DNA of 64,000 nucleotides from Gemmatimonadota bacterium (GTDB lineage: Bacteria > Gemmatimonadota > Gemmatimonadetes > Gemmatimonadales > GWC2-71-9): positions 126,736 to 190,735 of the forward strand of contig PNAE01000012.1 of NCBI GenBank assembly GCA_003169895.1, given 5' to 3'. The notes beneath the pieces are model-generated. The model saw only the letters and a list, made by a program, of their open reading frames with translations. It was not told the origin of the DNA and ran no database searches. Made by a program: the position numbers and the translations under genes. Every line of letters starts with the position of its first letter. The first letter of the stretch is position 1. Shown one piece after another: positions 13,600 through 60,749 of this stretch.

Positions 13600-13620
13600 C
13601 CTCAGGCCTCAGGCCTCAGG
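13600..13620. repeat. Three perfect CCTCAGG heptanucleotides
   Basis: CCTCAGG is repeated three times without mismatch, followed by a degenerate CCGCTTC, in the recX-alaS spacer. The CTCAGG motif recurs in the 24323-24406 array. Confidence 0.8.
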
Positions 13621-13635
13621 CCGCTTCGGTGTTGA

Positions 13636-22002: not shown

Positions 22003-23318
22003 TTGAACTGACTCCGCCGCGCGAACGTGTCGTGCTGGTGGCCGCGCCGCGCAAGGGTTCCGTCGACGCGCAGAAAGTCGGCGAGCACATCGACGAACTC
22101 GCCCGGCTGGTCGACACCGCCGGCGGCGACATTGTGGGGACGCTCACCCAGCATATCGCCGCGGTCAATTCGGCCACGCTCATCGGCGAAGGCAAGGTCG
22201 AGGAACTGCGCGCCCTCGTCGCGCAGGTGCACGGCACGCTGGTCGTGTTCGACGAGGAGCTGACTCCCGGGCAGGGCCAGTCGCTCGAAGAGACGCTGGG
22301 CACCCGCGTGATGGATCGCGCCGAGCTGATCCTCGACATCTTTTCGACCCGGGCTCGCAGCTCCGAGGCGAAGCTCCAGGTGGAACTCGCGCAACTGCAA
22401 TACCTGCTGCCGCGACTGACGCGGATGTGGACGCACTTGTCGCGCATCCGCGGCGGCATCGGGTTGCGGGGTCCGGGCGAGACCCAGCTCGAAACCGATC
22501 GGCGCCTCATCCGCAACAAGATCGGCGTGCTTCGCGAAAAACTGGAGGACGTCGCGCGGCACCGCGAAACCATCCGGTCGGGACGTAGCGCGTTACTGTC
22601 GGCGGCGCTGGTCGGCTATACCAACGCGGGCAAGTCGAGCCTGCTGCGGGCGCTGTCCGGCGAGCACGACATCTTCGTCGAGGATCGCTTGTTCGCGACG
22701 CTCGATACGTTGACGCGCGAGGTCGACCTGGGCGACAATCTCCGGGTACGCGTCAGCGACACGGTCGGCTTCATCCGCAAGCTGCCGCATCACCTGGTGG
22801 CGTCGTTCCGCGCCACGCTTGAAGAGGCCGGCAGCGCCGATCTGCTGCTTCACGTCACCGACGCTTCCCACCCGGAGTGGGAAGACCACATGCGCACGGT
22901 GGACGCAGTACTGGCCGAACTCGGCCTCGAGGAGCGGCCCACGCTGGTCGTGTTCCACAAGCTCGACGCACTGGAGGACCCGGTGACGTTCGCCGACCAG
23001 GCGCGCATGCGCTACCCCGGCGCGATCTTTACCACCGCGATGCGCACCGACGGCTTGCAGCCGCTCAAGGCCGAGCTGCGGGGACGCGCCGAGGCAATCC
23101 GCCCGGTCGTCCGCGTCCTGCTGAGCCCGGCCGATGGCAAGCGGCTCGGCTTTCTGCACCGCGTCGGGGACGTCCTGGGACAGAGCTTGTGTGGCGACCG
23201 GCTGGCGGTGGCGGTGCGGCTCGAGCCCTGGCGCACCGAACAGCTGCGGCGCGAGGGACTCGAAGTGCAATCCGTCGCAGAGGGCGCGGAGCCACACCCG
23301 TCAGGTGAGGAGCCATGA
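21999..23318 (+). CDS. hflX: Ribosome-associated GTPase HflX
   Basis: Splits stalled or heat-damaged ribosomes. 439 residues from ATG 21999 (ATGA overlap with rarA). The N-terminal HflX domain leads to a coiled-coil linker with the signature GGIGLRGPGETQLETDRR (152-169). The G domain follows with G1 GYTNAGKSS at 206-214, DTVGFIRKLPHHL (G3) and HKLD (G4, HKLD instead of NKxD), and then a small C-terminal domain. An in-frame GTG six codons upstream is ignored because of the exact stop-start overlap. Confidence 0.95.
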   Translation: MIELTPPRERVVLVAAPRKGSVDAQKVGEHIDELARLVDTAGGDIVGTLTQHIAAVNSATLIGEGKVEELRALVAQVHGTLVVFDEELTPGQGQSLEETLGTRVMDRAELILDIFSTRARSSEAKLQVELAQLQYLLPRLTRMWTHLSRIRGGIGLRGPGETQLETDRRLIRNKIGVLREKLEDVARHRETIRSGRSALLSAALVGYTNAGKSSLLRALSGEHDIFVEDRLFATLDTLTREVDLGDNLRVRVSDTVGFIRKLPHHLVASFRATLEEAGSADLLLHVTDASHPEWEDHMRTVDAVLAELGLEERPTLVVFHKLDALEDPVTFADQARMRYPGAIFTTAMRTDGLQPLKAELRGRAEAIRPVVRVLLSPADGKRLGFLHRVGDVLGQSLCGDRLAVAVRLEPWRTEQLRREGLEVQSVAEGAEPHPSGEEP

Positions 23319-24322
23319 AGCACCTCGTAACCGGCGCTGCGGGATTCATCGGATATCACGTCAGCGAGCGGCTGCTGGCCCGCGGCGACGAGGTGGTGGG
23401 ACTCGACAATCTCAGCCCCTACTATGATCCGGCCCTCAAGCAGGCACGCTTGGATCGGCTGCGTCGTCATCCCGGGTTCCGCTTCGTCAAGCTCGACCTC
23501 ACCGAACGCGAGGCGATGGAATCGCTGTTTCAGCGCGAGCGGTTCCCGCGCGTGATTCATCTCGCCGCTCAGGCCGGCGTCCGCTACTCGGTGACCCATC
23601 CGCACAGCTATATCGCAAGCAACGTCGTCGGCTTTCTGCATGTGATCGAGGGCTGCCGCCACCACGGCGTGGAACACCTCACCTACGCATCGACGTCGTC
23701 GGTGTACGGCCTGAACACCCACATGCCGTTTTCGGTGCACCAAAACGTCGATCACCCGGTGTCGCTGTACGCCGCCACCAAGAAGGCGAATGAGCTGATG
23801 GCGCACTCCTACGCCCATCTGTACGGATTGCGGGCGACCGGGCTCCGGTTCTTCACAGTGTACGGGCCGTGGGGGCGTCCGGACATGGCGCTGTTTCTGT
23901 TCACGCGGGCGATCCTCGAGGGCCGGCCGATCGATGTGTTCAATCACGGCAAGATGCGCCGCGACTTCACGTACATCGATGACATCGTCGAAGGTGTGGT
24001 GCGGATCTCCGATCGTCCGGCGGCGGCAAACCCCGATTGGCAGGGAGAGCACCCTGATCCGGCCAGCAGCTCGGCGCCCTACCGGGTCTACAATGTCGGC
24101 AACAGCGAACCAGCGGAGTTGATGGATTTCATCGGTGCGCTGGAGCGGTCACTTGGCAAGACCGCCGAAAAACGGTTTCTCCCGATGCAGCCGGGCGACG
24201 TGCCCGCGACGTCCGCCGACATCGAGGATCTGGCGCGCGATTGCGGGTTCCATCCCGGGACTACAATCGAGACCGGCGTCGCGAACTTTGTGGCATGGTA
24301 TCGGGAATACCATGGCGTCTAG
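23315..24322 (+). CDS. UDP-glucuronate 4-epimerase-type NAD-dependent sugar epimerase
   Basis: Extended SDR converting UDP-glucuronate to UDP-galacturonate, a precursor for acidic surface polysaccharides. 335 residues; NAD loop GAAGFIG (7-13), Ser/Thr active-site stretch YASTSSVYG (124-132), catalytic Tyr152 and Lys156. Diagnostic UDP-glucuronate epimerase segments are NLSPYYDPALKQARL, HLAAQAGVRYS and FFTVYGPWGRPDMALFLFTRAI. The convergent and divergent glycosyltransferase genes next to it are the likely users of the product. Ends at a TAG that borders an 84-bp heptanucleotide array. Confidence 0.92.
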   Translation: MKHLVTGAAGFIGYHVSERLLARGDEVVGLDNLSPYYDPALKQARLDRLRRHPGFRFVKLDLTEREAMESLFQRERFPRVIHLAAQAGVRYSVTHPHSYIASNVVGFLHVIEGCRHHGVEHLTYASTSSVYGLNTHMPFSVHQNVDHPVSLYAATKKANELMAHSYAHLYGLRATGLRFFTVYGPWGRPDMALFLFTRAILEGRPIDVFNHGKMRRDFTYIDDIVEGVVRISDRPAAANPDWQGEHPDPASSSAPYRVYNVGNSEPAELMDFIGALERSLGKTAEKRFLPMQPGDVPATSADIEDLARDCGFHPGTTIETGVANFVAWYREYHGV

Positions 24323-24406
24323 GTCCGAGGCCTGAGGCTTGAGGCGTGAGGTGTAAGGCCAGAGGGCTCGGATCTCATGGTTCAGGGCTCAGGCCTCAAG
24401 CCCGAG
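24323..24406. repeat. 84-bp array of twelve 7-bp units between convergent genes
   Basis: Unit starts fall every seven bases from 24323. The first six units follow G-N-N-T-G-A-G (for example GCCTGAG, GCTTGAG, GCGTGAG). The last six are largely the inverse type (ATCTCAT, GGTTCAG, GGCTCAG, GCCTCAA). The halves can pair: GGCTTGAGGC at 24336-24345 is the exact reverse complement of 24393-24402. The array runs from the epimerase stop into the last six codons of the minus-strand glycosyltransferase. It may serve as a bidirectional terminator. Confidence 0.75.
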
Positions 24407-25462
24407 GGCCCGCCGCCACAGCGTGACCATCCGTTCCGCGACCGCCGCGTCGGCGTACTGCTCCAGCACCCGCTGTCGTGCCACGGAGCCGATGCTGCGG
24501 CACCGCCAGGGTTCGGCGACAAATCCCTGAGTGGCCCGCGTGAGCGCGACAAGGTCGTCCTGGTCGACGATCAGTCCGCTACCCCCAACCACGTCCGGCA
24601 GCGCCCCGGACCGGCTCACCACCGGCGCCACACCCTGCGCCATCGCCTGCAGCACCATGGCCCCGGACGGTTCAACCCACTCGGGCGTGGACCGTGATGG
24701 AGCCACCAGCACATCGACCTCGGGCCAGAATGCGTTGAGTTGGTCGCGGGGCAGGGCGCCGAGCCACTCGATCCGCGCCGACAGGCCGAGATGCTGGGCC
24801 TGCTGCTCCAGGCTCTCGTGTACCGGGCCGGTCCCGACAATTCGCAACCGCCAGTCGCCGAACGTCGCGCCGAGTGCATTGAGCAGCAAGTCGATACCGC
24901 GTTCCGCCACCAACCGCCCGACCGCGGCGAACATCACCGGCGCCGGATCGGGTCGCGGAGACCACGCCACGGGAATACTGAGCCCGCCCGGCGGCAGCAC
25001 TGCCGTCGGCCTGTCGGTCGACTGCCCGCCCAGCAGGTGCTCCAGGGCCGACCGAACGGTGCCGGCGAGCGCCGCCGCCTCAGTGCGGATGCGATCGCCC
25101 TGCCATTTGGCGGTGAGTCCCTTCGGTCCGCCGAGGCTGGACGTGGCCACCAACACATACGGGACCTTGAGATGTCTCGCCGCCGCGGCGCCTGCCTCGG
25201 CCGTCGGGGTCCACGGGTCGCCCATGATGTGGATGAGTTGCGGGCCGACATCGCGCACCATCGCCCGCAACGCGCGCCGCGACCAGCGCAGGTCCACCGG
25301 GCGGTCGCGATCACCGCGCGCGCTGACTCGTACGTACTGGATCAACCCGTCGGTCTCGCTGTCGCCGTCGGGACGTGCGACGACCGGCTCGACTCCCAGA
25401 CTGCTGAGCGAGCGAAGTACTCCGCGGGGCGGTGAGGCTGGCGAAAGAATGAGGACGCGCAC
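24389..25462 (-). CDS. GT-B glycosyltransferase (GT4-like)
   Basis: 357 residues from GTG 25462 on the minus strand. N-terminal Rossmann-like half starting VLILSPASPP. The C-terminal half carries FAAVGRLVAERGIDLLLNAL (nucleotide-sugar domain entry) and the donor-binding region EWVEPSGAMVLQAMAQGVAPVV at about 260-285, typical of GT4 retaining enzymes. There is no membrane segment, so it would act at the cytoplasmic face. Donor and acceptor are unknown. Its last codons lie within the heptanucleotide array. It is divergent from the second glycosyltransferase, with only 38 bases between start codons. Confidence 0.85.
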   Translation of the reverse strand: MRVLILSPASPPRGVLRSLSSLGVEPVVARPDGDSETDGLIQYVRVSARGDRDRPVDLRWSRRALRAMVRDVGPQLIHIMGDPWTPTAEAGAAAARHLKVPYVLVATSSLGGPKGLTAKWQGDRIRTEAAALAGTVRSALEHLLGGQSTDRPTAVLPPGGLSIPVAWSPRPDPAPVMFAAVGRLVAERGIDLLLNALGATFGDWRLRIVGTGPVHESLEQQAQHLGLSARIEWLGALPRDQLNAFWPEVDVLVAPSRSTPEWVEPSGAMVLQAMAQGVAPVVSRSGALPDVVGGSGLIVDQDDLVALTRATQGFVAEPWRCRSIGSVARQRVLEQYADAAVAERMVTLWRRALGLEA

Positions 25463-25487
25463 CGGACAAAGATGGGGAGGTCGCCGC

Positions 25488-25493
25488 TAAGTT
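25488..25493 (+). promoter_or_regulatory. Putative -10 element TAAGTT of the GT4 gene at 25501
   Basis: TAAGTT lies seven bases before ATG 25501 in a 38-base divergent spacer. On the opposite strand CATCTT lies six bases before GTG 25462, so the two promoters would overlap in this very short interval. Confidence 0.4.
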
Positions 25494-25500
25494 CCACCCC

Positions 25501-26586
25501 ATGCGGATACTGCACCTCGCCAAGTACTACTGGCCGCGCTCCGGTGGCATGGAGCGCGTGGTGCAAGGGCTGGCCGAAGGGGTGGCCGAGCGCGGACACG
25601 AGGCAGAGGTCGTTGCGGTCACTGCCTTCGGCGATCCGCGCCCCGGACAGCGTCGCCGCGCCGCGGTCACACGTGCCTGGTCGTTCGCTCCCGTGGGATC
25701 GCAGGAGCTGGCTCCGGGCTATGTGCGGGCCGCATGGAAGCGCGCTGATGTGATCCATCTGCACCATCCGAATTCGCTGGCCGACGTGGCGTACGCGCTG
25801 CGGCCCTCGCTCGCACCGCTTGTCGTCACCCAGCACGCCGACTATCCCAGCTTCAAGTACTGGCTGCCGTCCAAGTACGCACTGTGGAGCGCGGAGGCGA
25901 TCGTGGTGCCCAGCCGTGCGCATATCGCCCTGTCCCGGGAACTGCGCGGATTCGAAAACAAGGTGGAGGTGATTCCGTTCGGCATCGACGAGCGTCGCTG
26001 GGAACTGGTGCCGCCGCCGCCGCCCGGCAACCCGCCGCGGGCGCTGTTCATCGGGCGACTGATGGCTTACAAGGGAGTGGACTTCCTCCTCCGGGCCCTC
26101 GAGTTGGTGCCGGACGTGCGCCTCGACATCGTAGGGTCAGGGCCGGAGCTGCATCGCCTGCAGACGCTGTCGCGAGCCTTGGCGGTCGAGGACCGGGTCA
26201 AGTGGTGGGGGGAATACCCCGATGAGGACCTCCCTAGACGGATGGCTGACGCCGACTTTCTGGTGCTGCCCTCGGTGAGCGTTCAGGAGATGTTCGGCAT
26301 GGTACTGCTCGAAGCGATGGCAGCGGGCAGGCCTGTCATTACCACGGCGGTCCCCTCCGGCGTGCGCGAGGTCAACCTGGCGGGCACGACCGGCCTCGAG
26401 GTGCCCATCCGGGACGTCGGGGCACTCGCCGAGGCAATGCGGACGCTCGCCGGTGACGCGAGGCTGCGGGAACGCCTTGGCAGGGCAGGGAGGGAGCGGG
26501 TGCGGCAGCGCTTCACCGTGACGGCCATGGTGGACGCACATCTGGAACTCTATCGCCGCGTGCGCGGGCCCAAGGGCGTCAGGTAA
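25501..26586 (+). CDS. GT4-family glycosyltransferase
   Basis: 361 residues. The N-terminal part reads ILHLAKYYWPRSGGMERVVQGLAEGVAERGHEAEVVA, a classic GT4 acceptor-domain opening with the glycine-rich GGMERV loop. The C-terminal half has ALFIGRLMAYKGVDFLLRAL and the donor-site motif EMFGMVLLEAMAAGRPVITT (about 264-283) with the EX7E arrangement. Likely builds an exopolysaccharide or O-antigen-type glycan with the divergent neighbour and the UDP-glucuronate epimerase. A mannosyl- or glucosyl-transfer role cannot be distinguished by eye. Confidence 0.9.
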   Translation: MRILHLAKYYWPRSGGMERVVQGLAEGVAERGHEAEVVAVTAFGDPRPGQRRRAAVTRAWSFAPVGSQELAPGYVRAAWKRADVIHLHHPNSLADVAYALRPSLAPLVVTQHADYPSFKYWLPSKYALWSAEAIVVPSRAHIALSRELRGFENKVEVIPFGIDERRWELVPPPPPGNPPRALFIGRLMAYKGVDFLLRALELVPDVRLDIVGSGPELHRLQTLSRALAVEDRVKWWGEYPDEDLPRRMADADFLVLPSVSVQEMFGMVLLEAMAAGRPVITTAVPSGVREVNLAGTTGLEVPIRDVGALAEAMRTLAGDARLRERLGRAGRERVRQRFTVTAMVDAHLELYRRVRGPKGVR

Positions 26587-26655
26587 TGCGAAATAACCGG
26601 CCATTTCACCCATTCTCCGGATGGGGGAGGGGGTATCGGTCGATTCCTAGCAAAA

Positions 26656-26689
26656 AATGTCTTACTTTAGTGCTACAGCGTAAGACATT
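26656..26689. repeat. 34-bp dyad: 10-bp perfect arms, 14-bp spacer
   Basis: AATGTCTTAC (26656-26665) and GTAAGACATT (26680-26689) are exact reverse complements. If read as 13-bp arms with an 8-bp core, 11 of 13 positions match, the geometry of tyrosine-recombinase sites such as loxP. It could equally be a repressor operator. No T-run follows, so terminator function is unlikely. Confidence 0.55.
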
Positions 26690-26717
26690 GTAATGAAACT
26701 GTTTAGCAATTTGTATT

Positions 26718-26738
26718 CATCTTGTTTCTTGTTTCTTG
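26718..26738. repeat. Heptanucleotide tract, 3 units
   Basis: CATCTTG, TTTCTTG, TTTCTTG: two identical units and one variant at the right edge of the AT-rich island. Confidence 0.5.
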
Positions 26739-27030
26739 TCACTGGGGCATGGGGACCCGATACCAAGCCGTGCAGCCGTCCATGAGGTGTCTTTGGGCTG
26801 CGCGCCGCGCCGTCCAAGGGTTGCGACCTGCGTCGAAGGCGCTGGTCGGGTGTGGCAGGATGTCGCGTGAAGAACGGCCCGGACGTTGATCACGGTGAGC
26901 GGACCGGAACGCTAGATTTTGGAGCAAGCCGGAGTGCCCGATCAGCTGCCCGGGACGACTGTGATGCGGCGTTCTCGCGGAGCGCTGGCGGTGGACTGAC
27001 GGTGCGAGTCAACCGATCGCCAGGAAAATG

Positions 27031-27058
27031 TTGACAAAGCCAGTAAGAGCAGTAGTGA
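27031..27058 (+). promoter_or_regulatory. Putative promoter of tRNA(CAT)
   Basis: A perfect -35 TTGACA (27031-27036) and TAGTGA at 16-base spacing (27053-27058), ten bases before the tRNA 5' end. Confidence 0.45.
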
Positions 27059-27067
27059 CAGGCAGTT

Positions 27068-27141
27068 GGCCTCGTAGCTCAGGTGGTTAGAGCAGCGGAC
27101 TCATAATCTGAAGGTCGGGGGTTCGAATCCCTCCGGGGCCA
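27068..27141 (+). tRNA. tRNA with CAT anticodon (Met elongator or lysidine-type Ile2)
   Basis: 74 bases folding as a cloverleaf: acceptor GGCCTCG/CGGGGCC with one G-T pair, D-arm GCTC/GAGC, anticodon loop CTCATAA with CAT at 27102-27104, T-arm GGGGG-TTCGAAT-CCCTC. CCA is not encoded. The anticodon stem has a G27-A43 mismatch and a G29-T41 wobble. The GGCC acceptor start and CTCATAA loop recall E. coli ileX, so it could be tRNA-Ile2 needing TilS rather than tRNA-Met; sequence alone does not decide. Confidence 0.93.
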
Positions 27142-27145
27142 TGGG

Positions 27146-27174
27146 TTGTTATGCGCTAGGAAGGGTGATATGAT
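27146..27174 (+). promoter_or_regulatory. Putative promoter of tRNA-Val
   Basis: TTGTTA (27146-27151), 17 bases, TATGAT (27169-27174), ending 19 bases before the tRNA-Val 5' end. It suggests the second tRNA can be transcribed independently of the first. Confidence 0.55.
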
Positions 27175-27193
27175 CCGCGCCCCGCTTCTGCGG

Positions 27194-27267
27194 GGGCGAT
27201 TAGCTCAGCTGGTTAGAGCGCGCGCCTCACATGCGCGAGGTCGGGGGTTCAAGTCCCTCATCGCCCA
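27194..27267 (+). tRNA. tRNA-Val (CAC anticodon)
   Basis: 74-base cloverleaf with fully paired acceptor GGGCGAT/ATCGCCC, D-arm GCTC/GAGC, perfect anticodon stem CGCGC/GCGCG, loop CTCACAT with anticodon CAC at 27228-27230, T-arm GGGGG-TTCAAGT-CCCTC and discriminator A. CCA is not encoded. A 6-bp hairpin (CCACCC-CGCT-GGGTGG, 27278-27293) follows 11 bases downstream and may mark the processed 3' trailer. Confidence 0.96.
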
Positions 27268-27363
27268 TCGGCCTGAACCACCCCGCTGGGTGGCGTAGGG
27301 TCGCCGAGTCAGTCAGTGAGTGGAGCCTCCCGGGCTGGCTCGGAACGGTAGACGGAGTAAGCG

Positions 27364-27400
27364 AAGCGGCTGCGTCCTCACCGAGGATGCAGCCGCTTTT
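27364..27400 (+). terminator. Strong hairpin terminator between the tRNAs and hldE1
   Basis: AAGCGGCTGC pairs perfectly with GCAGCCGCTT (27364-27373 / 27389-27398). The pairing continues as GTCCTC/GAGGAT to a three-base ACC loop, giving about 16 base pairs, and the plus-strand arm runs into four T. It would stop tRNA transcripts. The structure covers the last codons of the convergent hldE1 gene, so on the minus strand it also sits at the very end of that message. Confidence 0.65.
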
Positions 27401-28385
27401 CGTCGAGTGCCGCGAGCAGTTCGTTGGCGGAGACCGACGCTGTACCGCGCTTGCCCACCTCGATGCCGGCGGCGACGTTCGCCAGCCAGACCGCCTCCTG
27501 AATCTCCGCGCCGGCCGCGAGCGCGGTGGCCACCCACGCGGCGACCGTATCGCCGGCGCCGGAGACATCGAACACATCCCGCGCGATGCTCGTGGTCGCG
27601 CGCAACGGTTCGCCGGGAGACACGAGCATCATGCCATCTCTTCCGAGCGTCAGCAGCAGGTGCTGCGTGCCGAGTCGCTGGCGCGCGCCTTCGAGATCGG
27701 CGTCGTCGCCAACGAAATGGGTTGAGAACGCCGCCTCCAGCTCGCGGCGGTTCGGCTTGAATACGGTGGCGCCCGAATAGGCAAAGAAATTGTGCAACTT
27801 GGGGTCCACAACGACCGGGATGCCGCGGCTGCGTCCCGCGGCCACCAACTCCCCGGCCATCGCGGCGTCGATCGTGCCCTTGTCGTAGTCCTCGATCAAC
27901 AGGACGTCGGCGTCGGCGATCACGGCATGGGCCGATGCGACCAGCGCGTCGCGGAAGCGGTCCGCGAGCGGGTTGGTCACTTCGCGATCGATCCGCACGA
28001 CTTGCTGACCTCGCGCGACGATCCGCGTCTTCGACGTCGTTGGACGACCGAGCACGGTAATCAGTCCTGCCGGCGAAATCTCCAGCGCGCTGAGTGCCTC
28101 TCGCAGCACGTCGCCCGCTACGTCGTCGCCGACCGCGCCCACCAGGCGGGGGTGGCCGCCGATTGCTGCCACGTTGACCGCAACATTCGCGGCACCGCCG
28201 GGGACGACTTGTTCGTCGTCGACGGTGACCACCGGAACCGGCGCTTCCGGCGAGATCCGTTCGGCGTCGCCGACCAGGTAGCGGTCGAGCATGACGTCGC
28301 CGACCACGGCAACCCGCGTCTTTCGCATCCGTTCGAGCAATTGCGTTACGCGGACGCGCGGCACCGGAGACAGCGTGGCAGGCAT
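27378..28385 (-). CDS. hldE1: D-glycero-beta-D-manno-heptose-7-phosphate kinase
   Basis: Phosphorylates heptose 7-phosphate at C1 in ADP-heptose synthesis. 335 residues, PfkB/ribokinase fold. N-terminal RVAVVGDVMLDRYLVGDAERISPEAPVPV is diagnostic for RfaE domain I. VPGGAANVAVNVAAIGG lies at 61-77, and the catalytic base Asp279 is in DVSGAGDT (273-280). The cytidylyltransferase half found in fused HldE is absent, so domain II must be encoded elsewhere. Partner of gmhA in this window. ATG 28385 has TAGCTT six bases upstream. The 3' end is buried in a strong terminator hairpin shared with the tRNA operon. Confidence 0.93.
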   Translation of the reverse strand: MPATLSPVPRVRVTQLLERMRKTRVAVVGDVMLDRYLVGDAERISPEAPVPVVTVDDEQVVPGGAANVAVNVAAIGGHPRLVGAVGDDVAGDVLREALSALEISPAGLITVLGRPTTSKTRIVARGQQVVRIDREVTNPLADRFRDALVASAHAVIADADVLLIEDYDKGTIDAAMAGELVAAGRSRGIPVVVDPKLHNFFAYSGATVFKPNRRELEAAFSTHFVGDDADLEGARQRLGTQHLLLTLGRDGMMLVSPGEPLRATTSIARDVFDVSGAGDTVAAWVATALAAGAEIQEAVWLANVAAGIEVGKRGTASVSANELLAALDEKRLHPR

Positions 28386-28391
28386 GACAAG

Positions 28392-28397
28392 AAGCTA
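28392..28397 (-). promoter_or_regulatory. Putative -10 element TAGCTT of hldE1
   Basis: On the minus strand TAGCTT lies six bases before ATG 28385. No Shine-Dalgarno sequence is visible. An identical TAGCTT sits six bases before hrcA. Confidence 0.45.
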
Positions 28398-28400
28398 GCC

Positions 28401-28484
28401 GATGGGAAGTAGGAAGTAAGCAGTGAGAAGTCAGAAGACACATCCCCTGTCCGTGGTCCCGGTCGCTTCTCCGTTCTCCCGGCT
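28401..28484. repeat. 84-bp array of twelve 7-bp units in a divergent promoter region
   Basis: Starting at 28401, six purine-rich units (GATGGGA, AGTAGGA, AGTAAGC, AGTGAGA, AGTCAGA, AGACACA) are followed in the same phase by six pyrimidine-rich units (TCCCCTG, TCCGTGG, TCCCGGT, CGCTTCT, CCGTTCT, CCCGGCT). It fills the spacer between hldE1 and the asparaginase gene except for the two short promoter zones. Confidence 0.7.
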
Positions 28485-28508
28485 CACTTTGCGCTAGTGC
28501 CTTGTCGC

Positions 28509-28514
28509 TATCTT
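28509..28514 (+). promoter_or_regulatory. Putative -10 element TATCTT of the asparaginase gene
   Basis: TATCTT lies eight bases before ATG 28523; the same hexamer precedes the TPR gene at 1972. A TTTG is found 17 bases upstream of it. Confidence 0.4.
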
Positions 28515-28522
28515 GCGCGCGG

Positions 28523-29524
28523 ATGACGGAACTCGTTGTCGTATCGATGCGGGGTACTCTGGTGGAGTCCACACACCGGATCTCGGCGGCCGTGGTCAAC
28601 GCTGAGGGCCGGATTGTGGGTGGTGCCGGCGACGCCTCGCTGGTCACATACTGGCGGTCGGCGGCGAAGCCGTTTCAACTCCTTCCCCTGGTGGTTGACG
28701 GCGGGATCGAGCGGTTCGGCCTGGACCCCACGATGCTCGCGATCGCGTGCGGGTCACACAACGCCGAGTCCGTCCACCGCGAGGTCGTTGCCCGGTGGCT
28801 CATCGCGATCGGCGCCACGGAAGGCGACCTCGCCTGTGGCGGCCATCCGTCGCTGTGGCCCGCTCTTGCTGAGGCGATGATTCATGACGAGGTCACGCCG
28901 ACGCCGTTGTGGAGCAATTGCTCGGGCAAGCACGCGTCGCTGCTGGGTCTTGCGCGGCTGCACGGCTGGGGCATGTCCGGCTACGAGGAACGGTCGCATC
29001 CTGTGCAGCAACGAGTCGCGGAGACGATCGCGCAATGGAGCGGACAGTCGATCGACCAGTTGCAATGGGGGATCGATGGCTGCACGGCGGCGGCGGTTGC
29101 CCTGCCGCTCGTCGCGATGGCGCGGGCGTACGCCGCCCTCGCGACGAGCGCAGATCCCGCCGCGCGCGTCGTGCGGGACGCAATGATGGGGGAGCCGTAC
29201 CTGGTCGCTGGTGCCGATCGTCTCGATACCGTGCTGATGCAGGCGTGGTCCAACCGGCTGATCGCAAAGGTCGGCGCGGAAGGGGTCTATTCCGCGGCGC
29301 TGCCCACCCTCGGACTTGGCCTTGCGCTCAAGGTGCACGACGGGGACATGATCGCGGCCGGCTTGGCGCTCGTCGCATTGCTCGAGGCCATCACGCAGAG
29401 ATTCGGTCGCGACGACACCTGGCCACTCGAGGCGCTGAGCGAGTGGCGCAATCCGCCGCTCCGGAATACGCGTGGGGTCGTCACGGGACGCCGGGAGGTT
29501 CGTGGCGGCATGCGGTGGGAATGA
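28523..29524 (+). CDS. L-asparaginase II family protein
   Basis: 333 residues of the PF06089-type asparaginase II, unrelated to the bacterial type I/II amyloid-fold enzymes. Recognisable segments: YWRSAAKPFQLLPLV near residue 50, ACGSHNAESVH, WSNCSGKHASLLGLARLHG in the middle, and GIDGCTAAAVALPL. Family members hydrolyse asparagine to aspartate and ammonia in the cytoplasm (Rhizobium etli-type). Active-site candidates are the Ser/Lys pairs in RSAAKP and CSGKH. ATG 28523 is the only start consistent with the box at 28509. The stop overlaps the next gene (ATGA). Confidence 0.88.
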   Translation: MTELVVVSMRGTLVESTHRISAAVVNAEGRIVGGAGDASLVTYWRSAAKPFQLLPLVVDGGIERFGLDPTMLAIACGSHNAESVHREVVARWLIAIGATEGDLACGGHPSLWPALAEAMIHDEVTPTPLWSNCSGKHASLLGLARLHGWGMSGYEERSHPVQQRVAETIAQWSGQSIDQLQWGIDGCTAAAVALPLVAMARAYAALATSADPAARVVRDAMMGEPYLVAGADRLDTVLMQAWSNRLIAKVGAEGVYSAALPTLGLGLALKVHDGDMIAAGLALVALLEAITQRFGRDDTWPLEALSEWRNPPLRNTRGVVTGRREVRGGMRWE

Positions 29525-30159
29525 CGAGACCCCGGCTCGACGAGACTTCCCGCACGCTGGTAACGCTTGCGGCGCAGATCGCCGAAGGTGACCCGGAAGA
29601 GATCCGGAAGGGCGTTGCCGAAGCCATCGCCGTCGGCGTTCCGCCCCTGGCGGTCGACGAGCTGGTGCTGCAGTCGGTGCTGACGGTTGGCTGGCCGCGC
29701 GCCCTCGTGGCAGCGGGCATCTGGCGTGCTGCCGCCGGCGCGCCTTCGCCGCTCGGCGAGGATGGTCTCGACTACGCCCGTCACGAGGAATGGACTCGTC
29801 GCGGTGAGTTGACCTGCCGGACGATCTACGGCGATCACTACACCAGGCTGCGCGCCAACGTTCATGCGTTGCACCCGGCGCTCGAAGCGTGGATGGTGAC
29901 CGAGGGATACGGGCGCACCTTGGCGCGCCCGGGGCTGGCGCTCAAGTTGCGCGAGCTCTGCACCGTCGCGCAGACCGCCGTACTGCGCACCCCGCGACAG
30001 CTTCATTCACACCTCCTCGGTGCCTTGCGCAGCGGCGCGTCGATCGACGAAGTCGACGCCACCTTGCGCGTGGTGCATCCGTTGTTGCCGCGCGCGGCAT
30101 GGCGCGAAGCCAGGACACTGTGGCAGCGGATCCGTGACGCTTGGGCCTCCGCGCCTTGA
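29521..30159 (+). CDS. Carboxymuconolactone-decarboxylase-fold (AhpD-like) protein
   Basis: 212 residues. A helical N-terminal CMD-like unit (GVAEAIAVGVPPLAVDELVLQSVLTVGWPRALVA) is followed by a second, PNVH-type helix bundle (ALEAWMVTEGYGRTLARPGLALKLRELCTVAQTAV) and LHSHLLGALRSGASIDEVDATL. The fold is all-alpha. The CxxC redox pair of AhpD is missing; a single Cys (in ELCTVA) and HSH remain, so peroxidase-reductase activity is unlikely. It is coupled to the asparaginase gene upstream and to obg downstream (TTGA). Role unknown. Confidence 0.75.
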   Translation: MTRPRLDETSRTLVTLAAQIAEGDPEEIRKGVAEAIAVGVPPLAVDELVLQSVLTVGWPRALVAAGIWRAAAGAPSPLGEDGLDYARHEEWTRRGELTCRTIYGDHYTRLRANVHALHPALEAWMVTEGYGRTLARPGLALKLRELCTVAQTAVLRTPRQLHSHLLGALRSGASIDEVDATLRVVHPLLPRAAWREARTLWQRIRDAWASAP

Positions 30160-59820: not shown

Positions 59821-60749
59821 CCGCTCGACTCATCGATGGCAGCGCGATCGGTGCGGCGATCCGTAGCGAGGTTGCCGCCGAGGTGTCGGCGCTGCGCGCA
59901 CACGGAACCGCGCCGGGGCTTACGGTGATCCTGGTGGGCGAAGACCCGCCGTCACAGATCTACGTGCGGTCGAAGGCCAGGGCGTGCGCCGAAGCTGGCA
60001 TGCGATCCGACGTGATCGCGCTGCCGGCGTCCACGGCCGAGCATGAGCTGCTCTCGGTGATCGAGCGGCTGAATCACGACGCTGCGGTGCACGGGATTCT
60101 CTGTCAGCTCCCGCTGCCTCGCCACCTTGATTCCGCGCGGATACTCCGCCGGATCGATCCCGCCAAGGATGTGGACGGCCTCCATCCGATCAACGTCGGC
60201 AAACTGGTGCTCGGCGACGCGACCGGATTCAAGCCGGCGACCCCGTTCGGCGTGCAACAGTTGCTGGTCCGCTCCGGCATCGACACCCGCAGTGCACACG
60301 TCGTCATCGTCGGCCGGTCGAATCTGGTGGGACGTCCGCTCGCGAACCTGCTGAGCCAGTCCGGACCGGGCGCGGATGCGACGGTGACGATCGCGCACTC
60401 CCGCACGCGCGATCTCGATGCGGTCTGCCGGACCGCGGATATCCTTATCGTCGCGATCGGGCGGGCGGAGTTCATCCGGGCAGCCGCGGTGAAGCCCGGC
60501 GCGACGGTGATCGATGTCGGTACGACGCGCGTCGATGACGCGAGCCGCTCGCGCGGGTATCGCCTGGCGGGGGATGTGGCCTTCGACGAGGTGTGCGAAG
60601 TGGCCGGCGCGATCACCCCGGTGCCAGGTGGCGTCGGGCCGATGACGATCGCGATGTTGTTGGTCAACACGCTGCGGGCTGCGACGATGCTGACCGTGGG
60701 TCGATCAGCCACCAGTCGCCAGCCACCGGCCACCAGCCCGCCATCATGA
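59817..60749 (+). CDS. folD: Bifunctional methylenetetrahydrofolate dehydrogenase/cyclohydrolase
   Basis: Interconverts 5,10-methylene- and 10-formyl-tetrahydrofolate. 310 residues from ATG 59817. Catalytic Tyr49-x3-Lys53 in PSQIYVRSKARAC; GILCQLPLPRHLD; KDVDGLHPINVGKL; Rossmann part VVIVGRSNLVGRPLANLL; and the closing ITPVPGGVGPMTIAMLLVNTL. The last 14 or so residues (SATSRQPPATSPPS) are encoded by a heptanucleotide repeat tract rather than conserved sequence, so the natural C-terminus has been extended by repeat DNA. Overlaps rny and xseA by four bases. Confidence 0.95.
   Translation: MTARLIDGSAIGAAIRSEVAAEVSALRAHGTAPGLTVILVGEDPPSQIYVRSKARACAEAGMRSDVIALPASTAEHELLSVIERLNHDAAVHGILCQLPLPRHLDSARILRRIDPAKDVDGLHPINVGKLVLGDATGFKPATPFGVQQLLVRSGIDTRSAHVVIVGRSNLVGRPLANLLSQSGPGADATVTIAHSRTRDLDAVCRTADILIVAIGRAEFIRAAAVKPGATVIDVGTTRVDDASRSRGYRLAGDVAFDEVCEVAGAITPVPGGVGPMTIAMLLVNTLRAATMLTVGRSATSRQPPATSPPS
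60708..60742. repeat. GCCACCA-type heptanucleotide array inside the folD 3' end
   Basis: GCCACCA, GTCGCCA, GCCACCG, GCCACCA, GCCCGCC: five units translated as the folD tail and ending just before the xseA ATG at 60746. Confidence 0.65.

Follow-up and report, generated by a model that had tools for sequence, protein, structure and literature searches.

A degenerate heptad array between hldE and L-asparaginase genes as a probable eroded member of a purine-first class of inverted heptads

What is a run of worn seven-base repeats between two back-to-back start codons? In the window analyzed here (64,000 nucleotides of contig PNAE01000012.1, positions 126,736 to 190,735, assembly GCA_003169895.1, from a Gemmatimonadota bacterium of the order Gemmatimonadales), an hldE-type PfkB kinase gene (27378..28385, minus strand; Pfam PF00294, E 7.8e-41) and an L-asparaginase II gene (28523..29524, plus strand; Pfam PF06089, E 3.1e-102) diverge from start codons at 28385 (minus) and 28523 (plus), leaving a spacer of 137 bp. 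An earlier note on this DNA described in the spacer an array of exactly twelve heptads (84 bp, 28401 to 28484), six purine-rich ones followed by six pyrimidine-rich ones, which lies between the two start regions and might set promoter spacing or serve as a transcription factor platform.

The location and the degenerate seven-base periodicity, with a purine-rich and then a pyrimidine-rich half, both hold. Read in sevens from 28401, the left half is GATGGGA, AGTAGGA, AGTAAGC, AGTGAGA, AGTCAGA, and AGACACA, and the right half is TCCCCTG, TCCGTGG, TCCCGGT, CGCTTCT, CCGTTCT, and CCCGGCT, with CACTTTG following. Lag-7 matches number 45/77 in the whole array and 25/35 in the left half (both P < 0.0003, 4,000 shuffles) and 19/35 in the right half (P about 0.011); TRF reports period 7 at 28406-28437 in the left half, and no periodicity signal was obtained at lags 5, 6, 8, and 9. 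Two of the left units, the first (GATGGGA) and the sixth (AGACACA), misfit the AGTNAGA type proposed for them, and lag-7 matches together with TRF delimit a purine arm at 28404..28439 that is composed of degenerate direct heptads (GAAGTAG, GAAGTAA, GCAGTGA, GAAGTCA, and GAAGAC). Nor are the two halves unrelated. Their best ungapped match is 12 in inverted versus 3 in direct orientation (P 0.0013), and because the left units, once reverse complemented, align with the right half, the switch from purine to pyrimidine is an inversion. Lag-7 and inverted matches place the pyrimidine arm, with its worn heptads, at 28443..28490, so that it extends beyond 28484. An inverted AGTGAGC-type unit, GGCTCACTT, which is the reverse complement of AAGTGAGCC, crosses that position; because it is a further unit just across the end first given, the boundary of 84 bp and six plus six units is arbitrary.

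A second array, at 24323-24406, had been likened to the first by its length and division. The two are indeed alike in their forward-then-inverted plan: the sister element (24319..24410), between convergent epimerase and glycosyltransferase genes, consists of CTGAGGC-type heptads and then their inverse, and each of its halves has period 7 (P < 0.0003). They differ in that the sister forms a genuine hairpin (RNA fold z, -4.9; -5.7 and -3.5 on the two strands), whereas the hldE-asparaginase array folds no better than shuffles on either strand (z, +0.5 to +0.9). At 24389-24411 the inverted arm of the sister passes the stop codon of the glycosyltransferase gene (the ORF ends at 24389, minus strand), and its heptads therefore encode the last residues of that protein. 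An Rfam search of 23000-30000 at the gathering score yielded only two tRNAs, whose genes (27068-27141 and 27194-27267) separate the glycosyltransferase gene from hldE, and no structured RNA match at either array.

Our analysis shows that such arrays form a class in this genome. On contig C8 (1.28 Mb), 107 period-7 segments score at least 13, versus 1 to 3 segments at each of the non-codon periods 4, 5, 8, 10, 11, and 13 and 2 period-7 segments in a third-order Markov shuffle. Spacers that contain no array have lag-7 identity of 0.271, compared with 0.268 to 0.270 at lags 8, 10, and 11; since they show no lag-7 excess, the class is discrete, and a hidden heptad background across the remaining spacers was rejected. 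A plain ungapped palindrome score was also tried as an element detector and proved poor because control spacers hold ordinary palindromes. A sample of 1.64 of the 3.42 Mb of the genome, taken as stretches, contains 125 heptad elements, mostly intergenic, of about nine unit types (GACGAGA, GTGAGAC, GTAAGAG, GTGAAAG, CATGAGC, CTGAGGC, TGGCTAT, GGGAGCT, and GAAGTNA). Neighboring elements share a unit type slightly more often at most (0.619 versus 0.594).

The elements are inverted within themselves and polar. Where a partner array exists, it is inverted in 70/74 elements, and arm similarity is 0.70 within an element versus 0.41 between elements. The purine-rich arm precedes the pyrimidine-rich one in 63 inverted pairs, with the reverse order in 3 and two pyrimidine-rich arms in 2, so that 63/66 of the opposite-polarity pairs are purine first and the purine arm is the 5' one on both strands. 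The remaining 51/125 elements are single arrays, 24 of them purine rich and 27 pyrimidine rich. Two-armed arrays (n = 63) span 50 to 212 bp (median, 100 bp), and 9/63 fall within 80 to 88 bp; twelve units in 84 bp is thus not a defined length of the class. The earlier note had held that a broad spread of lengths with no consistent half switch would speak against its idea; the spread is broad, but the switch persists.

Using our own simple and crude gene calls (87 to 94% coding), we found that in co-directional spacers the array begins a median of 3 bp after the upstream stop codon and ends 36 bp before the next start codon. Two-armed elements are present in 21/100 convergent, 30/462 co-directional, and 6/148 divergent spacers (Fisher's test, convergent versus rest, 5.6e-6; divergent versus rest, 0.06); in the six divergent spacers a terminator is not needed. 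The median RNA fold z of the two-armed elements is -5.97 versus -0.17 for control spacers, and 58/63 have z < -2. Core hairpins in this genome are modestly better than shuffles, A and T tracts are weak when the arms are excluded, and the T-run is often missing. In array-free spacers, ordinary stems also lean toward a purine-rich 5' arm (16/17 untied cases in convergent spacers). Bidirectional intrinsic terminators have an A/purine side, a hairpin, and a U/pyrimidine side, whichever strand is read, and the hybrid of pyrimidine-rich RNA with purine-rich DNA is the less stable one, a property that fits release at the 3' side. Because the purine-5'/pyrimidine-3' order of the class equals this polarity, selection for termination could preserve both the polarity and the pairing of the arms. 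Most of the elements lie just behind genes and probably help to stop transcription there. They resemble bidirectional intrinsic terminators in lying behind stop codons, in their convergent enrichment, and in having a purine side and then a pyrimidine side, and they differ from them in their long, periodic arms and frequently missing T-run.

Comparison with relatives of the genus reveals rapid turnover. Three of them (G001, G003, and G009) also carry the class, purine first. Spacers orthologous to those with elements in our genome contain an array in 0/15 comparisons, drawn from elements whose flanking genes have a placement in the sampled genus relatives. In a larger sample of G001, 14 sites are occupied only in our genome, 6 only in G001, and 3 in both; at the shared sites the units differ wherever they are readable. 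Where only our genome has an array, its spacer exceeds the counterpart by about 56 bp, versus a difference of -1 bp at sites that lack an array in both genomes. The class is polymorphic between species of the genus. In some orthologous pairs only, the counterpart spacer has a conserved hairpin. At C8a pair 279, the spacer of our genome contains a plain terminator-like hairpin, GAAACGGGGGCTCCGAGTGGAGCCCCCGTTTC, and that of G001 contains GAGAGACGAGAGACGAGAGAAGGTGGTTCCGAGCGATCGGAGCCACCTTCTCTCGTCTCTCG, with heptad arms; pair 437 shows the reverse, with heptad arms in our genome and a plain terminator-like hairpin in G001. Long intergenic palindromes such as TCATCCCGAGCGAAGCGAGGGATCG and GCGAAGTCGAAGGACCTCGG...CCGAGGTCCTTCGACTTCGC are also common (L012/G001:C54 and spacers of our contig C8), and palindromes of this kind occupy sites that hold heptad elements in the other species and are sometimes found inside the cores of those elements.

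Is the whole class then a mutational by-product, generated by 7-nt slippage and template switching at quasi-palindromes and intergenic only because it is tolerated there? The fast turnover between species, the many unit types, and the single arrays of either polarity all speak for such a functionless process. So does the way in which the arms match, which is by unit and only weakly by exact mirror register; a position-specific register, as expected if one arm is copied from the other, was tried and found weak (identity, 0.80 versus 0.73; best register above shifted in 27/53). However, a symmetric process leaves the 63:3 polarity unexplained, and likewise the preference for convergent spacers and gene 3' ends, and we consider this explanation unlikely, though deserving of some weight.

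We favor instead, with a probability of roughly 0.6, the reading that the hldE-asparaginase array belongs, as a worn and unusually placed copy, to a purine-first class of inverted heptads, the arms of which have grown by 7-nt slippage on intergenic, chiefly terminator-like, hairpins. An element consists of tandem degenerate 7-mers, a short core, and then the same 7-mers inverted. Replication slippage by 7 nt would both lengthen its arms and drive their turnover, acting on palindromes already present between genes (mainly bidirectional terminator-like hairpins), and under selection for termination the unit sequence and site occupancy may drift while polarity and pairing persist. The copy in question lies in a divergent spacer and has no stable fold, so it is not a hairpin at a gene 3' end. 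Because no gene ends there, the arms have no stable pairing, and there is no terminator core, it is most likely a decaying by-product. Its presence may have lengthened the spacer, to 137 bp from the 60 to 101 bp found in seven genus relatives, and it now stands between two -10-like boxes.

These boxes bear on the idea that the array belongs to the promoters. A scan of the region for sigma-70 promoter and terminator consensus sequences returned no promoter or terminator-like site. Two putative -10-like boxes are present: TAGCTT (28392..28397, minus strand), 6 nt before the ATG of hldE and similar in several genus relatives, and TATCTT (28509..28514, plus strand) ahead of the asparaginase gene, invariant in 8/8 aligned spacers and thus found in all seven relatives. 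Both lie only 6 to 8 nt from the start codons, as they do in the relatives, and this closeness suggests leaderless transcripts for hldE and asparaginase. The array is placed between the two boxes and occupies both -35 regions, as if it replaced those of divergent promoters or bound a regulator, and the sole other DNA relative of the array in this genome (C8:790421-790511), which is of the same unit type, is likewise in a divergent spacer and starts directly beside AAGCTA; the hairpin there is better preserved. Several observations argue against a promoter-linked element. (i) The array is absent in 7/7 genus relatives compared at this spacer, and they retain the asparaginase box without it. (ii) The class is rarest in divergent spacers, and the unit type of this array is also found elsewhere in the genome, including in the convergent spacer C8:573160. 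(iii) Units vary between elements, and sites 7 bp apart are not on one helix face. A role in promoter linkage or regulator binding is therefore improbable, and the promoter spacing and transcription factor platform proposed earlier find no support in a class concentrated at 3' ends and in convergent spacers.

The edges of the array raise a further question. GCTAG is present at both its left edge (28394..28398) and its right edge (28493..28497) and only once in the array-free hldE-asparaginase spacer of G001, which, together with the inverted arms and the absence from orthologous sites, is what would be expected of a miniature inverted-repeat mobile element inserted with a 5-bp target duplication. 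Across the class, however, flank duplications of at least 5 bp occur in 10% of elements versus 8% of swapped partners, and target site duplication was rejected as a class feature. The elements have no shared terminal sequence, their units vary from one to another, and the one DNA relative of this array matches it only partially, over 38 bp. Insertion of a mobile element is thus largely refuted as the origin, and we consider it very improbable.

The nearest described case is that of the inverted GGGAATC heptads of Xanthomonas, which is a close one. Part of these repeats form inverted pairs, 70 to 75 per genome; the repeats are mostly intergenic, lie an average of 28 nt behind the upstream ORF, and are found between convergent ORFs in 16% of cases versus 7 to 8% between divergent ORFs, and the prominent repeats at given genes are not common to different species (PMC4692102). 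Both systems consist of tandem degenerate heptads in inverted pairs whose purine-rich unit points inward on either side, and both are intergenic, behind ORFs, more frequent in convergent than in divergent spacers, and little shared between species (PMC4692102). The Xanthomonas system has one unit and was studied as a G-quadruplex former (PMC4692102), whereas our class has about nine unit types, many of them without G-tracts, as well as a core that is a hairpin and, in relatives, plain hairpins at orthologous sites. The GGGAATC unit with its G-tracts is not among the units of our class, which are GACGAGA, GTGAGAC, GAAGTNA, and others.

Other heptad systems are more distant. Among the longer repeats of bacteria, those of seven bases are the most common, and polymerase slippage at 7 nt has been proposed; the long heptanucleotide repeats are described as direct, with neither inverted pairing nor polarity found in the text consulted (PMC4679880). 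The TAACTGA repeats of marine Beggiatoaceae are similar in forming numerous intergenic heptad sets within one genome and different in having one unit, direct orientation, a position mostly just before start codons, and a single inverted repeat (PMC4679880). Geobacter metallireducens has many copies of four or five tandem heptads, and its global-regulator-site classes are mostly paired; these have a fixed consensus (GGACCGG; MTYCTGA), are putative regulatory elements or regulator sites, and occur also within genes (PMC2700814). Searches of openly licensed papers turned up no account of heptads forming the arms of terminators and none of the polarity rule.

The pattern is not limited to this phylum. 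In an outgroup sample of 80 loci (1.39 Mb of assorted bacteria from other phyla or distant relatives, from a genome contig scan with the hldE protein), period 7 gives 20 arrays versus 1 to 5 at five other periods, and at an Alcanivoracaceae locus (L084) two heptad arms flank AACGTAAGAGGCCGCGCCCAAGGGTGGGCGCGGCCTCTTACGTTT, a textbook terminator-type hairpin. Pattern counts in Betaproteobacteria (Gallionella- and Nitrosomonadales-type genomes) gave 46 placements of GAAGRGNGAAG ... CTTCNCYCTTC, purine first, at about 22 distinct loci among the matches listed, and none in the opposite order in these genomes. The inner parts contain A4 or T4 in 18/22 cases (3.2 expected), with T-runs 11:0 in the right half and A-runs 11:0 in the left half of the core. 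A general mode of terminator growth across phyla, in which 7-nt slippage or copying, possibly transcription coupled, extends both arms and always leaves the purine arm 5', might account for this, although we hold this broader proposal to be tentative and rather doubtful. If true, it would mean lineage-specific, fast-evolving gene 3' ends. In many bacteria no other longer simple repeat is reported to be as common as the heptad, and there is no accepted explanation for this. By itself, the hldE-asparaginase copy is of little importance; the polarity, the tie to 3' ends and convergent spacers, and the plain and heptad-armed orthologues make the origin and change of terminators a testable question.

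Single-armed arrays are also present in the window, at 13600-13622 (CCTCAGG), at 26720-26739 (TCTTGTT), at 60706-60738 (CAGCCAC, where a gene call ends), and at 1922-1953 (CTAGGGG type), the last ending just ahead of a TTATCTT box. In G001, a near-perfect inverted repeat with 80-bp arms (G001:C6:5-208, L226), with its off-consensus variants mirrored as well, looks as if one arm had been copied from the other, with an assembly artifact possible at this contig end. Several contigs of G001, G003, and G009 start or stop within or near long heptad arrays. In our own genome, runs of N lie exactly at the centers of heptad palindromes (G000:C12:31421-31487 [L008], G000:C8:799600-799647, and G000:C8:906384-906434), and because they sit at these centers, assembly or scaffolding fails at heptad hairpins.
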